Source: Pirellulales bacterium
Lineage (GTDB): Bacteria > Planctomycetota > Planctomycetia > Pirellulales > JADZDJ01
Direction: 5' to 3'
DNA: 51,273 bases
Assembly (NCBI GenBank): GCA_020851115.1
Contig: JADZDJ010000164.1
Coordinates: forward strand, 1-51,273
Shown here: piece by piece, positions 2,219-44,063 of the stretch
Layout of the letters: each line of letters opens with the position of its first letter
How positions within the stretch are numbered: the stretch's first letter is position 1
Notes under the pieces: model-generated
The model's input: the letters and a program-made list of their open reading frames with translations, nothing else
What the model was told of the DNA's origin: nothing
The model's database searches: none
Translations under genes and position numbers: made by a program

Positions 2219-2337
2219 ACGAGGTGTCGAGGTTTGAGGGTACCAAGATCAGCCATGGAAGCGGATATTTCTCACCGCATTGACTGATCGCTGCCCCCTG
2301 AACCCCGATCCCTGCGTTCAGAAAGGACAAATCATCT

Positions 2338-3516: not shown

Positions 3517-5262
3517 ATGCAGCGACTTCAAGGGATTGCCGTTTCACCGGGAGTCGCCATCGGCGAAGCCTTGGTGATGGGCACCGAGGGATTCCGCATC
3601 CCGCGGCGGTTCGTTTCGCGCGATGCGGTTGACGAAGAACTGGATCGGTTTGGCAAAGCAGTCCATGCCGCGGCGGTCGAAATCCAGCATAATCGCGATG
3701 CGGTCGCCAAAGAGTTGGGTCGGCAGTATGCCATCATCTTCGACGCTCATCTGCAAATACTCACCGACCCCAAGCTGCGGTCGGAATTGGAGAGCATGAT
3801 CCGCGACCGGCATTATTCGCCGGAGTACGCAATCAGCCGAACGATGCGCCGCTATGCCAAAGTGTTCCAACAACTTCCTGGCGGCAGCCTAGCCGAACGC
3901 ACCAGCGACATCTTTGACGTGGAAAAGCGGTTATTGCGGAATCTGCTCGGCCGCCGCCGCGAAGAACTGTCGAAGCTCACTTCGCCGGTCGTGATTCTAG
4001 CGCACGATCTGACTCCCAGCGAGACCGCAAATCTCGACCGCAAATTCGTCCGCGGCTTTGTGACCGAAATCGGCGGTCCCGGCAGTCATACGGCGATCGT
4101 CGCCGAAGGGATGGAAATTCCTGCGGTAGTCGGCGTCGGACCGTTCGTCACCGACGTTTCCGGAGGCGAACTGGTGATTTTGGACGGCAACGAAGGTGTT
4201 GTCATCCTACAGCCCGACGAAGAAACCGTTGCCCGCTATCGGCACGAAGCCGAAGAACTGCGCACCTTGGCGACACGATTGGAAAGCATTCGCGACCTGC
4301 CCGCCGAAACAACCGACGGCGTGCGCGTGGAACTGCTCGGAAACATTGAATTTCCCTACGAAGTCGAGCACTGCGTGGAGCGCGGGGCCGACGGCATCGG
4401 CTTGTACCGCACCGAGTTCTTGTATCTTTCGACCGACATCGAGCCAACGGAAGAAACGCATTACGAGGCTTATTCGCAGGTCGTCCGCGCCATGGCGGGC
4501 AAACCCGTCATCATCCGCACGCTCGATCTCGGCGCCGACAAGCTTGCCCAAATGCCCAGCCCCGAGGAAGAGCGCAATCCGGTGCTGGGGCTGCGCAGCA
4601 TCCGCATGTCGCTGCGAAATTTGCCGTTGTTCCGTACGCAACTGCGCGCCATCTTGCGGGCCAGCGCGTTAGGCGACGTACGGGTCATGTTCCCGCTAAT
4701 CACCACGCTGCTGGAGCTGCGCCAAGCTCGCATGCTGCTGGTCGATGTGATGGAAGACCTGGAAGAAAACAAGGTAGCCTTCAATCGCGATCTCCCGGTC
4801 GGCATGATGGTCGAAGTGCCCTCGGCCGTATTGATGATTGACCGATTCGTCGAAGAGGTCGATTTCGTCAGCATCGGCACGAATGATCTGATTCAATATA
4901 CACTGGCCGTCGATCGCGCGAACAAGGACGTGGCGGCCCTATATAACTCAACCGACCCGGCCGTGCTGCGGCTGATCGACATGACGATTCAGGCGACGAA
5001 GCGGGCCGACGTTTCGGCAAGCCTTTGCGGCCGCATGAGCAGCAATCCGGCCTACACCCAGTTGCTGCTCGGCTTGGGATTGCGCCAATTCGGCGTGACG
5101 CCCAGCGCAATCCCGGAAATCAAGCGACTGATTCGCGCCGCGAATGTCGCTCAATGCGAAACCGTTGCGCAGCGGGCGCTCGCGATGGAAAACGCGCGCG
5201 ACATCAAAGCGATGTTGCGCGAAGAATTGAAGAAAATTGCCCCGGAATTAGATAAACGATAA
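3517..5262 (+). CDS. ptsI: PTS enzyme I (phosphoenolpyruvate-protein phosphotransferase)
   Basis: Enzyme I autophosphorylates from PEP and passes phosphate to HPr. The 581-residue length matches the family. The N-terminal HPr-binding domain leads to the phosphohistidine motif GGPGSHTAIVA (H191), and the C-terminal PEP-binding barrel has RTLDLGADK, EERNPVLGLRSIR and GTNDLIQYTLAVDR. The catalytic cysteine is present in SLCGRMSSNP, where many family members read CGEMA, so the residue two after the cysteine is Arg rather than Glu. There is no N-terminal GAF domain, so this is the sugar-type enzyme I rather than PtsP, although its only visible EIIA partner is PtsN-like. The ATG at 3517 fits the usual family start. 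Confidence 0.93.
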   Translation: MQRLQGIAVSPGVAIGEALVMGTEGFRIPRRFVSRDAVDEELDRFGKAVHAAAVEIQHNRDAVAKELGRQYAIIFDAHLQILTDPKLRSELESMIRDRHYSPEYAISRTMRRYAKVFQQLPGGSLAERTSDIFDVEKRLLRNLLGRRREELSKLTSPVVILAHDLTPSETANLDRKFVRGFVTEIGGPGSHTAIVAEGMEIPAVVGVGPFVTDVSGGELVILDGNEGVVILQPDEETVARYRHEAEELRTLATRLESIRDLPAETTDGVRVELLGNIEFPYEVEHCVERGADGIGLYRTEFLYLSTDIEPTEETHYEAYSQVVRAMAGKPVIIRTLDLGADKLAQMPSPEEERNPVLGLRSIRMSLRNLPLFRTQLRAILRASALGDVRVMFPLITTLLELRQARMLLVDVMEDLEENKVAFNRDLPVGMMVEVPSAVLMIDRFVEEVDFVSIGTNDLIQYTLAVDRANKDVAALYNSTDPAVLRLIDMTIQATKRADVSASLCGRMSSNPAYTQLLLGLGLRQFGVTPSAIPEIKRLIRAANVAQCETVAQRALAMENARDIKAMLREELKKIAPELDKR

Positions 5263-5267
5263 CCCCT

Positions 5268-5344
5268 CGGTGATCGGTCATCGATGGTCGCTGGCAACGA
5301 CCGCCGATCGATCGACACGGACCAAGAACCGCCGACCACGGACC
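5268..5344. repeat. Inverted heptad-repeat arms, ptsI-DUF2344 spacer
   Basis: The left arm (5268-5295) is four 7-bp units starting CGGTGAT, CGGTCAT and fitting roughly CGRTNNT. The right arm (5317-5344) is four 7-bp units of form NNNNACC, with ACGGACC as both first and last unit. Unit consensus on the two sides is approximately complementary. A short perfect stem GGTCG/CGACC lies between the arms. The right arm ends 6 nt before the GTG start of the next gene. Confidence 0.6.
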
Positions 5345-5350
5345 AACCTC

Positions 5351-5980
5351 GTGCCCCGCCAGCGCGTGCGAATTCGATTCAGCAAACAAGACGATCTTCG
5401 TTGGATCAGCCACCGCGATTTGATGCGATTGTGGGAGCGGCTGTTTCGTCGAGCTGGCGTTGCACTCAGCATGACCGAAGGGTTTCATCCCAAGCCTCGG
5501 CTGAATTTTCCTTCGGCCTTGGCGGTGGGCATTGCGGGGGCGGACGAGATGCTGGAAGTCGACTTGGCCGAGGATCACACGGCCGATTCGCTGCGATCGG
5601 CCCTCGCTCCGGAATTGCCGCCAGGGATGGTGATCGGCGACATTGAAGTGCTCTCGGCACCAGATCGCAAAGCGCAAGCTAAGCGTGTCACATTTGAATT
5701 TCCGATTCCTACAGATCGACGAGCAGCATTGGCCGCCAGACTCCTTGAAGTCTGGCAAAGCGAGGCATTGCCGATCGAGCGCGAAGGCCGCAAAGCGCCG
5801 CTCGATTTGCGCCCTTTGATTTCCGAGCTATCGTTGACCGACGATGGAAATCTGCATGTGCAACTGATCGTCGACCGCACAGGCAGCGCCCGCCCGCGCG
5901 AAGTGCTCGCAGCGCTCGGCGTGTCCGACCTGGAGTATGAAGGTTGTTTTTTAACACGTACAAAAGTGGAGATCGAGTGA
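5351..5980 (+). CDS. TIGR03936/DUF2344 radical-SAM-linked protein
   Basis: This 209-residue protein belongs to the DUF2344 family. It begins RQRVRIRFSKQDDLRWISHRD and contains GVALSMTEGFHPKPRLNF and FPSALAVGI, the diagnostic segments. Family members usually sit beside, or are fused to, a radical SAM protein (TIGR03960) just upstream of RNase E/G and L21. Here rne and rplU follow, but the SAM partner is not upstream, where ptsI lies instead. The biochemical function is unknown. I set the start at GTG 5351 because homology begins there; an in-frame ATG at 5270 would add a sequence that is entirely repeat arm. Confidence 0.85.
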   Translation: MPRQRVRIRFSKQDDLRWISHRDLMRLWERLFRRAGVALSMTEGFHPKPRLNFPSALAVGIAGADEMLEVDLAEDHTADSLRSALAPELPPGMVIGDIEVLSAPDRKAQAKRVTFEFPIPTDRRAALAARLLEVWQSEALPIEREGRKAPLDLRPLISELSLTDDGNLHVQLIVDRTGSARPREVLAALGVSDLEYEGCFLTRTKVEIE

Positions 5981-6045: not shown

Positions 6046-7761
6046 ATGAAGCAAGAAATGTTGATCAACGTCTCGCAGCCGGAAGAATGTCGGATTGCGG
6101 TCGTTGAAGATGGAATCCTCGAAGAGCTCTATATCGAACGCAGCAGTGCCGACAATTATGTCGGCAACATCTATAAAGGCAAAGTGGTAAACATCGAGCC
6201 GAGCATCCAAGCGGCATTCGTCGATTTCGGCGTCGGCCGCAACGGATTTTTGCATATCAGCGACGTCGAATCGCAATATTTTCGCCAGGGGGGTTACGAC
6301 CCCGATGCGCCGATCGAGCGCGGTGGCCGCGGCGACCGGCGCGATCGCCCCTGGCGGCACGACGAACCACAGGCCGTCGGCGAATCCGTTGCCAATGGCA
6401 ACGGCGACCTCGAAGCCGATGCCGATGACGAAGATTTCGATGAAGACGGCCCGCGCCGCAATCGACGCAGCCGACCTGGAATGCGTCCCCGCATCAAGCC
6501 GCCGATCCAAGATATTCTTCGTCGCGGTGACGAACTGCTCGTGCAAGTCATCAAGGAGGGCATTGGCACCAAAGGCCCAACGCTTTCCACGTATATCAGT
6601 ATTCCAGGCCGCTATCTGGTGTTGATGCCGGCGCTGGGCCGCGTCGGTGTGTCGCGCAAGATCGAGGACGACGTCGCTCGCCGCAAGCTCCGAGACATCA
6701 TGAACGAGCTGAATCCGCCTCGCGGCTTGGGATTTATCGTCCGCACGGCCGGCGTCGATCGCACCAAGAAAGAAATTTCGCGCGACTTGGCCTATCTGTT
6801 GCGGCTGTGGAAGGTGATCTCGCGGCGGATCAAGAAGCATCCAGCGCCGGTCACGATCTATGAAGAAAGCGACATGATCATTCGCACGATCCGCGATATG
6901 TTCACCGGCGAAGTCGACTCGATCTTCATCGACGAGCCGAGCGCTTACGAACGCGCCAAAGAATTTTTGCAAATCGTCATGCCCCGGTATGTGAGCCGAC
7001 TCCAACTCTACGAAGGCCGCGAGCCGCTATTTCACAAATACAGCATTGAAACGGAAATTACGAAAATTCAGCAGCGCAAAGTGCCACTCAAGCAGGGCGG
7101 ATCGATCGTGGTCGATCAAACGGAGGCGCTCGTGGCCATCGACGTCAATAGCGGCAACTTCCGCGCCGAAGACAGCGCTGAGGAAACCGCCTACCAAATG
7201 AATCTGCTAGCCGCGAAGGAAATCGCCCGGCAGTTGCGGTTGCGCGACTTGGGCGGCGTGATTGTGAACGACTTCATCGATATGCGCAAGGAACGACATC
7301 GCCGCAACGTGGAACGCGCCTTGCGCGAAGCCATGCGCCGCGACCGCGCCCGGACGAAAATCTTGCGGACCAGCCCCTTCGGACTGATCGAAATGACTCG
7401 CCAGCGAATCCGTCCCAGCCTGAAGCGCAGCGTGTACCGAGAATGTCCTTGCTGCACCGGCACAGGGGTCGTCAAGACGGCGGAAAGCATGGCGATTGAA
7501 GTGGTGCGGTTACTTGCCTTCGCTGCCCAACGAGAGGGGGTCGCTCGAGTGTCCGTAACCGTCGCGGAAGAGGTCGCCAACTATCTTCACAATAAAAAAC
7601 GCCGAGAAATTGCTCACTTAGAAGACCAGGGGAATATGAATATCCAGGTCTACGGCCGCGAAGGAGCGGCCCCCGAGCACCTGCTGATGGAGTGCCTCGA
7701 TGCTGGCGGCCGAGAAGTAAAACTGCCGGCGGCCGCGACCACCGTCTCGACCGCTCGGTGA
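6046..7761 (+). CDS. rne: Ribonuclease E/G family protein
   Basis: This is an endoribonuclease for RNA processing and decay. The 571-residue protein starts with MKQEMLINV and has an S1 RNA-binding domain (GNIYKGKVVNIEPSIQAAF). That domain is split by an inserted run of about 65 charged residues rich in Asp, Glu, Arg and Gly (about residues 87-150). The catalytic aspartates are in AIDVNSGNF (D366) and NDFIDM (D409). The zinc-link cysteines are in CPCCTGTG (C467, C470). The long C-terminal degradosome scaffold of E. coli RNase E is absent, so the overall form is closer to RNase G. The ATG at 6046 follows AGAAAG. It lies between the DUF2344 gene and rplU, a conserved order. Confidence 0.92.
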   Translation: MKQEMLINVSQPEECRIAVVEDGILEELYIERSSADNYVGNIYKGKVVNIEPSIQAAFVDFGVGRNGFLHISDVESQYFRQGGYDPDAPIERGGRGDRRDRPWRHDEPQAVGESVANGNGDLEADADDEDFDEDGPRRNRRSRPGMRPRIKPPIQDILRRGDELLVQVIKEGIGTKGPTLSTYISIPGRYLVLMPALGRVGVSRKIEDDVARRKLRDIMNELNPPRGLGFIVRTAGVDRTKKEISRDLAYLLRLWKVISRRIKKHPAPVTIYEESDMIIRTIRDMFTGEVDSIFIDEPSAYERAKEFLQIVMPRYVSRLQLYEGREPLFHKYSIETEITKIQQRKVPLKQGGSIVVDQTEALVAIDVNSGNFRAEDSAEETAYQMNLLAAKEIARQLRLRDLGGVIVNDFIDMRKERHRRNVERALREAMRRDRARTKILRTSPFGLIEMTRQRIRPSLKRSVYRECPCCTGTGVVKTAESMAIEVVRLLAFAAQREGVARVSVTVAEEVANYLHNKKRREIAHLEDQGNMNIQVYGREGAAPEHLLMECLDAGGREVKLPAAATTVSTAR

Positions 7762-38681: not shown

Positions 38682-38688
38682 GTCGAGT

Positions 38689-38765
38689 AAAATGCAACAT
38701 GCAAAATCGTGAGGAAACCGTAATTCCGGGCGATTCGATTTTGCATTCTGCATTGGTCATGTTGC
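38689..38765. repeat. Inverted heptad-repeat arms, rpsP-trmD spacer
   Basis: ATGCAAAATCG (38699-38709) pairs perfectly with CGATTTTGCAT (38736-38746), and AATGCA/TGCATT extend the stem after a 2x2 internal loop. The left arm is three 7-bp units (AAAATGC, AACATGC, then a third). The right has four from 38738 (ATTTTGC, ATTCTGC, and two more). GCAACATG on the left can alternatively pair with CATGTTGC (38758-38765), which lies 9 bases before the trmD start. Confidence 0.7.
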
Positions 38766-38774
38766 CTTGTTACT

Positions 38775-39470
38775 ATGCGATTCGACATCCTGACCCTGTT
38801 TCCGGAAATTTTTTTCGGCTACGTCGGGCAAAGTGTGTTGAAGTTAGCGATTGATCGGGGGTTGGTGCAGGTCCATTTGCACGATATTCGCAAGTGGGCG
38901 AAGGGAAAACATCGAGTCGTTGACGATCGGCCGTACGGAGGCGGGCCGGGAATGTTGCTCAAGGTCGAGCCGGTCGTCGAGGCGGTTGAAGCGGTACAGC
39001 AGTTGGCCGAGCCGGGGCATTTAGTGATGCTCACGCCGGTGGGCAGAAAACTGACGCAGCCAGTGGTGGAAGAATTAGCCGGTCGCCGGCGGCTGGTTTT
39101 GTTGTGCGGAAGGTACGAAGGGTTCGACGATCGAGTCCGGCAGCTATTACAGCCCGACGAGATTTCCATTGGCGACTACATCACCGGAGGCGGCGAAGTG
39201 CCGGCGATGGTGTTGGTCGAAACGGTGGTTCGGCTTGTGCCGGGCGTTTTAGGGGACCTTGATAGCGCAAAGCTCGACTCCTTCTCGCACGGTAACCGAT
39301 GGTTGGAAGCAGGACATTTTACCCGGCCGAGAGAATATCGAGGCCTAACCGTTCCCGAAGTGCTGCTCAGCGGTGATCATGAAGCGATTGCCAAGTGGCG
39401 GGGAGCGGAAAGCAAGAGGATGACGGAAGAACGGAGACAGGATTTGTTGGATAAACAACGGGCTAATTGA
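38775..39470 (+). CDS. trmD: tRNA (guanine-37-N1)-methyltransferase
   Basis: TrmD methylates G37 of tRNAs reading CNN codons to prevent frameshifting. The 231-residue SPOUT-class enzyme has MRFDILTLFPEIFFGYVGQS, the DDRPYGGGPGMLLKVEP loop, LCGRYEGFDDRV, the SAM-binding knot ISIGDYITGGGEVPAM, and a C-terminal SGDHEAIAKWR. No ribosome binding site is evident, because the preceding bases belong to a repeat arm. It lies between rpsP and rplS. Confidence 0.96.
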   Translation: MRFDILTLFPEIFFGYVGQSVLKLAIDRGLVQVHLHDIRKWAKGKHRVVDDRPYGGGPGMLLKVEPVVEAVEAVQQLAEPGHLVMLTPVGRKLTQPVVEELAGRRRLVLLCGRYEGFDDRVRQLLQPDEISIGDYITGGGEVPAMVLVETVVRLVPGVLGDLDSAKLDSFSHGNRWLEAGHFTRPREYRGLTVPEVLLSGDHEAIAKWRGAESKRMTEERRQDLLDKQRAN

Positions 39471-43962: not shown

Positions 43963-43964
43963 AT

Positions 43965-44063
43965 GTCGATGGTCAGTTGTCCGTCGTTGGTTGCACGACG
44001 TATTAAATGCCACAATTGCCCATCGACGATTCACGAACCACGGACTACTGACCCCTGACACAT
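43965..44063. repeat. Inverted heptad-repeat arms, apgM-lysC spacer
   Basis: The 21-bp arms at 43971-43991 and 44033-44053 match at 18 positions. The left side consists of 7-bp words from 43965 (for example GTCAGTT, GTCCGTC); the right has five to six from 44022 (for example AACCACG, GACTACT). The last word runs into the lysC ATG. GTCGATGG (43965-43972) can alternatively pair with CCATCGAC (44020-44027). Confidence 0.7.

Follow-up and report, generated by a model that had tools for sequence, protein, structure and literature searches.

A degenerate heptad array between ptsI and a DUF2344 gene probably belongs to a widespread kind of intergenic repeat in Pirellulales

The heptanucleotide repeats of Calothrix are named STRR and, to our knowledge, the excess of heptamers that has been noted among bacterial repeats has no accepted explanation. 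The published cases closest to the repeats reported here are, in the portions of the two articles that describe them, the GGGNATC-type heptads (PMC4692102) and the TAACTGA repeats (PMC4679880). The heptameric SSRs GGGAATC of Xanthomonas and GGGGA(C/T)T of Nostoc resemble the arrays of Pirellulales, being 7-nt tandem units, chiefly intergenic, that vary in number and sequence among relatives and form some inverted pairs, and slippage linked to the contact length of the polymerase has been cited as a hypothesis for them (PMC4692102). That study, in its section on these units, describes a single G-rich unit type per genome with possible G-quadruplexes (PMC4692102), whereas Pirellulales arrays have a degenerate unit per locus, their neighboring arms are often complementary, and their strand tracks the adjacent stop or start. 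The short tandem heptanucleotides of Calothrix, mentioned in the same article, are similar in kind but comprise three defined units and are set apart by that description (PMC4692102). In marine Beggiatoaceae, the TAACTGA direct repeats, for which a trans-acting binder was proposed, are comparable in that the heptamers lie right upstream of start codons, SD sequences are rare, and the repeats are strain-specific; they differ by a fixed single unit, found nearly always in direct orientation with one indirect repeat (PMC4679880). The locus-specific units of Pirellulales argue against a trans-acting binder of the type proposed for TAACTGA. REP sequences and the GTAG- and CGTC-tagged palindromes are also small extragenic palindromes (PMC3733652), but no common tag or conserved unit was seen in the Pirellulales arrays. 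Non-SD initiation has been suggested in Planctomycetes (PMC5397173), and our search of the open-licence literature retrieved no account of locus-specific complementary heptad arms in this phylum. In Pirellulales the unit varies by locus, yet the period of 7, the complementarity of the arms, and the stop/start orientation persist; this separates the origin of the arrays (putatively 7-nt slippage and arm copying) from any encoded content, and indicates genomes in which the distinction can be tested.

The locus of interest lies in a window of 51,273 nt, i.e. the whole stretch of DNA that was analyzed. The spacer between ptsI and the DUF2344 gene (5263-5350, 88 nt from the ptsI stop to GTG 5351) is nearly all in a single 7-nt phase, and direct reading gives 11 in-phase heptads at 5268-5344 that fill it (Table 1). 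Since the middle heptads share the phase of both arms, we consider the array to be one run of 11. The preliminary description, which had reported four consecutive 7-bp units on each side with an unbroken register, a right arm whose units all end in ACC and whose first and last units are identical (ACGGACC), an arm end 6 nt ahead of the GTG, and a GTG devoid of a Shine-Dalgarno sequence, is borne out by this reading: the six nucleotides 5345-5350 between arm and start are AACCTC, and AGGA, GGAG, and GAGG are absent from the 20 nt upstream of the GTG. The lag-7 identity of the spacer is 40/81, compared with a mean of 22.5 (sd 4.1) in dinucleotide shuffles, none of 5000 being as high, and this identity fraction was matched at any lag from 4 to 13 by 2 of 5000 shuffles. 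The pattern ACCN4ACCN4ACCN4ACC occurs only once in the window, at the focal right arm, and never in 100 shuffles. By a 70-nt lag-7 score the focal array ranks second in the window, behind an intergenic heptad element around 44000. Tandem Repeats Finder misses it because its heptad copies are too diverged.

Table 1 Coordinates of the focal heptads and flanking genes, of other heptad elements in the window, and heptad arrays at the same junction in relatives.
Feature	Position	Strand	Heptads or arms	Remarks
PTS enzyme I gene, ptsI (TIGR01417)	3517-5262	+		upstream gene; stop codon 5260-5262
Left arm	5268-5295	+	CGGTGAT CGGTCAT CGATGGT CGCTGGC	four in-phase GGT-type heptads; begins 5 nt past the ptsI stop codon
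Middle	5296-5316	+	AACGACC GCCGATC GATCGAC	three heptads in the phase of both arms; in the predicted fold, the left arm preferentially pairs here
Right arm	5317-5344	+	ACGGACC AAGAACC GCCGACC ACGGACC	four C-rich heptads, xxxxACC
Gene of DUF2344 / TIGR03936 radical SAM-associated protein	5351-5980	+		downstream gene; GTG start
Start-side array	2284-2314	+	CTGATCG CTGCCCC CTGAACC CCGATCC	upstream of gene at 2338
Second element	43971-44053	+	complementary heptad arms 43971-43990 / 44034-44053	spacer before gene at 44062 (presumably aspartokinase); scored array reaches the start codon
Third element	38687-38760	+	TGCA-type heptad arms 38687-38707 / 38734-38760	spacer before gene at 38775 (presumably trmD)
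Junction in L003 (G001, same family as focal genome)			GAACCCT-type	array ends at start codon
Junction in L005 (G034)			GAATCCC-type	array ends at start
Junction in L012 (G046)			GGTCCGT-type	array begins at stop
Junction in L043 (Pirellulales MAG contig JAFGPV010000138.1)			GTCGAGA	hairpin
Junction in L047 (Pirellulales MAG contig JAUWJC010000055.1)			GAGTTGA-type	

The start of the DUF2344 gene at GTG 5351 is supported by relatives that begin at the same codon (MTRQRVR, MIRQRVR). We also considered the array as an N-terminal extension of the DUF2344 protein, translated from the in-frame GTG 5270, and rejected it, as the start codon of relatives aligns with 5351. A scan for sigma-70 promoters gave no match, and terminator-like matches were two, on the minus strand, vs 0.7 expected.

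We then scored lag-7 segments against the control lags 8, 10, 11, 13, 16, and 17 in samples of the array's own genome (G000, 552 kb) and nine relatives. At threshold 9, intergenic lag-7 arrays numbered 19 in G000 (1-8 at the control lags), 32 in G001 (2-5), 7 in G034 (1-3), 4 in G046 (0-3), 2 in G022 (0-1), and 2 in G013 (0); G002, with runs of N left in, was equivocal (6 vs 1-4). The excess was absent at this threshold in G003 (0 vs 0-1), G007 (2 vs 0-2), and G019 (0 vs 0-3). The named contigs L032-L047 held 12 lag-7 arrays (1-5 at the control lags). Mean autocorrelation over all intergenic sequence rose only slightly at lag 7 (0.2601), so the signal resides in discrete arrays. That the focal array is low-complexity sequence produced by chance would be in keeping with its omission by Tandem Repeats Finder and with its ordinary fold (see below), but the shuffles and the lag-7 excess of the genome samples make this highly improbable.

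The units vary by locus even inside one genome (GGGTTCA, CATCCTA, TTTGCAA, GGTGAGT, GCAGAAG, CTAGCAA, AATGACC, GAAGTAC, and others), and near-perfect units occur at some other loci, unlike at the focal one. Such differences in unit letters argue against both a mobile family and a binding protein common to the arrays. Insertion of a REP/MITE-like mobile repeat between ptsI and DUF2344 could account for dispersed, intergenic arrays whose other copies are palindromic; the focal sequence, however, matches only itself in its 5.2-Mb genome and the units change locus by locus, leaving this origin very remote. As in heptameric SSRs, the focal array shows a period of 7 beyond chance and an intergenic location; its units are diverged instead of near-identical, none of its heptads contains GGG or CCC (the G-quadruplex type has a run of at least 3 G per unit), and TAACTGA is not among them. 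The array thus works like, and probably descends from, a heptameric SSR, without being a perfect one.

The same junction was compared in 45 loci, among which ptsI is followed by DUF2344 in 41 (the pair was not seen in L015, L019, L041, and L044); 34 of these 41 junction spacers had a length that allowed scoring, and the spacer of L024 is identical to that of L040. Clear heptad arrays were found in 5 of the 34 scorable spacers (Table 1). L016 was left out of this count: its lag-7 score of 17 equals that of L003, but its scores at the control lags are similar. In G002, which belongs to the genus of G001 and to the family of the focal genome, the junction spacer is 8 nt long and has no array. What the preliminary description gave as grounds for refutation, a register that sister species do not keep, is what we observed: neither register nor unit is conserved, the spacer of G002 having no array and the arrays found elsewhere having other units. 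The junction slot is reused by arrays whose letters are not conserved, and the DUF2344 gene can do without one. Likewise, orthologous spacers that bear arrays in both G000 and G001 have different units; we make no claim for recurrence of arrays in such spacers (n = 27), for which p was 0.015 at threshold 7 and 0.14 at threshold 8.

In the predicted minimum-energy fold, the left arm pairs with the inner heptads 5296-5318 and not with the right arm. The inner duplex, between these two partners, has −24.5 kcal/mol, a value equaled or bettered in 46 of 500 shuffles, and the outer one, between the left and right arms, has −21.5 kcal/mol (124 of 500), meaning that pairing of the outer arms is no stronger than composition predicts. 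The fold z-score is −0.97 for the spacer alone and +0.82 for the spacer with flanks, and Rfam covariance models returned no match up to E = 1 in 5000-5600. Given the inner-partner fold, the shuffle-level duplex of the outer arms, and the ordinary z-scores, a designed two-arm switch is unsupported, and so is the paired-arm regulatory leader for DUF2344 implied by the preliminary description, all the more as register and unit are not conserved. Cis-acting translational control, with a hairpin of the arms hiding the DUF2344 start until opened by a signal or by ribosomes completing ptsI, would suit a right arm that overlies the SD-less start region, a predicted left-inner stem, and the presence of heptads at the junction in some relatives; set against the outer pairing at shuffle level, the whole-region z-score, the array-free spacer in a genome of the same family, and the different units elsewhere, it appears quite improbable. 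A neat heptad ahead of one gene should therefore not be taken as a regulator of that gene. Instead, the seven-base rhythm of the focal spacer is real and probably represents a widespread kind of intergenic repeat, whose letters change from relative to relative, and not a DUF2344-specific switch.

Complementarity was analyzed further for 301 arrays (threshold 7; G000, G001, G034, and the named contigs), which include 41 neighbor pairs within 150 nt. The inverted match exceeds the direct match in 30 of these pairs (p 0.004), and in 21, compared with about 2.6 expected, it is better than for 95% or more of the arrays sampled at other loci, of which as many as 30 were drawn per pair. The control lags provided 3-10 neighbor pairs each, with 0-5 passing the complementarity test, the 5 being those of lag 8, where 5 of 10 neighboring pairs are complementary. 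For the focal pair, the inverted match is 9.0, the direct match 3.6, and the cross mean 6.1, with 7% of other arrays equally good, i.e. the right direction but a weak effect. A complementarity score between half-spacers placed the focal spacer 14th of 50 array spacers. The element near 44000, which fills the spacer 43963-44061 between two genes, has more cleanly complementary arms (17.6 for 43971-44053 vs 10.4 for the focal one). When each spacer was set against 12 crosses in this test, 10 of the 50 with arrays came out ahead of all of them (3.8 expected), but so did 11 of 80 without arrays (6.2 expected); we judged it weak and relied on the array-to-array comparison of pairs instead. The whole-spacer fold z-score does not set array spacers (−1.04, n = 44) clearly apart from array-free ones (−0.70, n = 100).

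For the position of arrays we turned to six genomes (G000, G001, G034, G022, G046, and G013), which were picked after their lag-7 enrichment was seen, and took 427 co-directional spacers no shorter than 40 nt; 50 of these spacers hold 62 arrays. Genes were called with a home-made script that may misplace starts, e.g. one G013 spacer measures 176 nt or 26 nt by different calls. Of the 62 arrays, 23 come within 10 nt of a start vs 9.7 expected (binomial p 3e-5), and 16 within 10 nt of a stop vs 9.7 expected, which is marginal (p 0.035). The preliminary description was right in its geometry when it placed the arm in the ribosome-binding region: the array fills that region of an SD-less start, and heptad arrays abutting a start recur in these genomes. 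A C skew is present in 19 of 21 start-side arrays, compared with 202 of 377 start sides of array-free spacers, and stop-side arrays in co-directional spacers are G-skewed in 11 of 15. Between convergent genes, 6 of 10 stop-side arrays are G-skewed and 3 C-skewed, so the strand rule is weaker there. The few lag-8 arrays have the same skew (3/3 and 4/4) which, together with their complementary arms, indicates that arms and skew may be general to low-complexity spacers. An SD-like motif precedes 2 of 21 genes behind start-side arrays vs 116 of 377 in array-free spacers, and accessibility from −20 to +10 is 0.58 with start-side arrays vs 0.49 (n = 21 and 382; G000, G001, and G034; p 0.0018), both effects being due in part to the low G content of these arrays. 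The focal start is unexceptional, with an accessibility of 0.44 in the 85-nt fold applied to the class and of 0.55 with the full spacer.

These data bear on a function independent of the unit, by which C-rich, G-poor arrays, under selection on composition and not on sequence, would offer ribosomes or S1 a landing site that lacks an SD and has little structure. Start proximity, C skew, the scarcity of SD motifs, and raised accessibility are all consistent with this idea, as are the leaderless/S1-type signals described in Planctomycetes with few SD genes (PMC5397173) and the TAACTGA heptads immediately upstream of Beggiatoaceae starts (PMC4679880). Complementary stop-side arms would nevertheless mask such a site, arrays are found between convergent genes too, the focal start is no more accessible than average, and S1 is described as preferring U-rich sequence (PMC5397173), so that we regard the explanation as possible but rather doubtful.

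We favor, with somewhat better than even confidence, the reading that the element at 5268-5344 is one degenerate instance of a Pirellulales class of intergenic heptad arrays, which would have arisen by slippage and template switching; on this reading the array is no dedicated regulator of DUF2344. The traits of the class are a 7-nt period, an intergenic site, locus-specific complementarity of the arms, strand bias, start proximity, low SD content, accessible leaders, and turnover of units between relatives. Each locus has a 7-nt unit of its own, which often forms two complementary arms, G-rich past the upstream stop and C-rich ahead of the downstream start. Slippage by 7 nt in spacers would generate the arrays, template switching within the inverted repeat would make the second arm and keep the arms matched, and selection would do no more than keep G and structure scarce in the start-side arm, allowing SD-less initiation to work. 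The period of 7 fits the slippage cited for heptameric SSRs (PMC4692102), complementary arms with locus-specific letters fit copying between the arms of an inverted repeat, and the start-side composition fits tolerance of SD-less initiation; such sequence patterns suggest slippage and template switching. A bolder version seems unlikely to us: heptad hairpins in Pirellulales spacers would renew themselves, with a locus-specific unit tiled in the G-rich arm past the stop and its complement in the C-rich arm reaching the next start, and would retain period, complementarity, and strand orientation despite the turnover of their letters. Throughout the genome, and independently of sequence, they would then link termination of one gene to SD-less initiation of the next.

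Several other arrays have features of their own. AATGACC/GGTCATT heptads, unlike most units, are common to several loci and genera (L160 997-1202 in G046 and, in G001, L133 7320-7398 and L184 18288-18462). Several of these arrays include a variant heptad, AAATCCC, in comparable positions, and the AATGACC/GGTCATT unit may propagate as a sequence. Besides its heptad array, L108 (5540-5695, G001) has a longer inverted pair, ACCACGGAGACACAGAGGCACGGAGA / CTCTGTGCCTCTGTGTCTCC, close to both spacer ends, which is of low complexity and lacks heptad periodicity. Matches to the gene at 38775 in G034, G007, G055, G035, G052, and G011 contain one in-frame stop, probably reflecting alignment ends or gaps. 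Finally, the Pirellulales MAG contig L047 has near-perfect inverted GTTATCA / TGATAAC heptad arms at 2829-2935 and 7356-7448.
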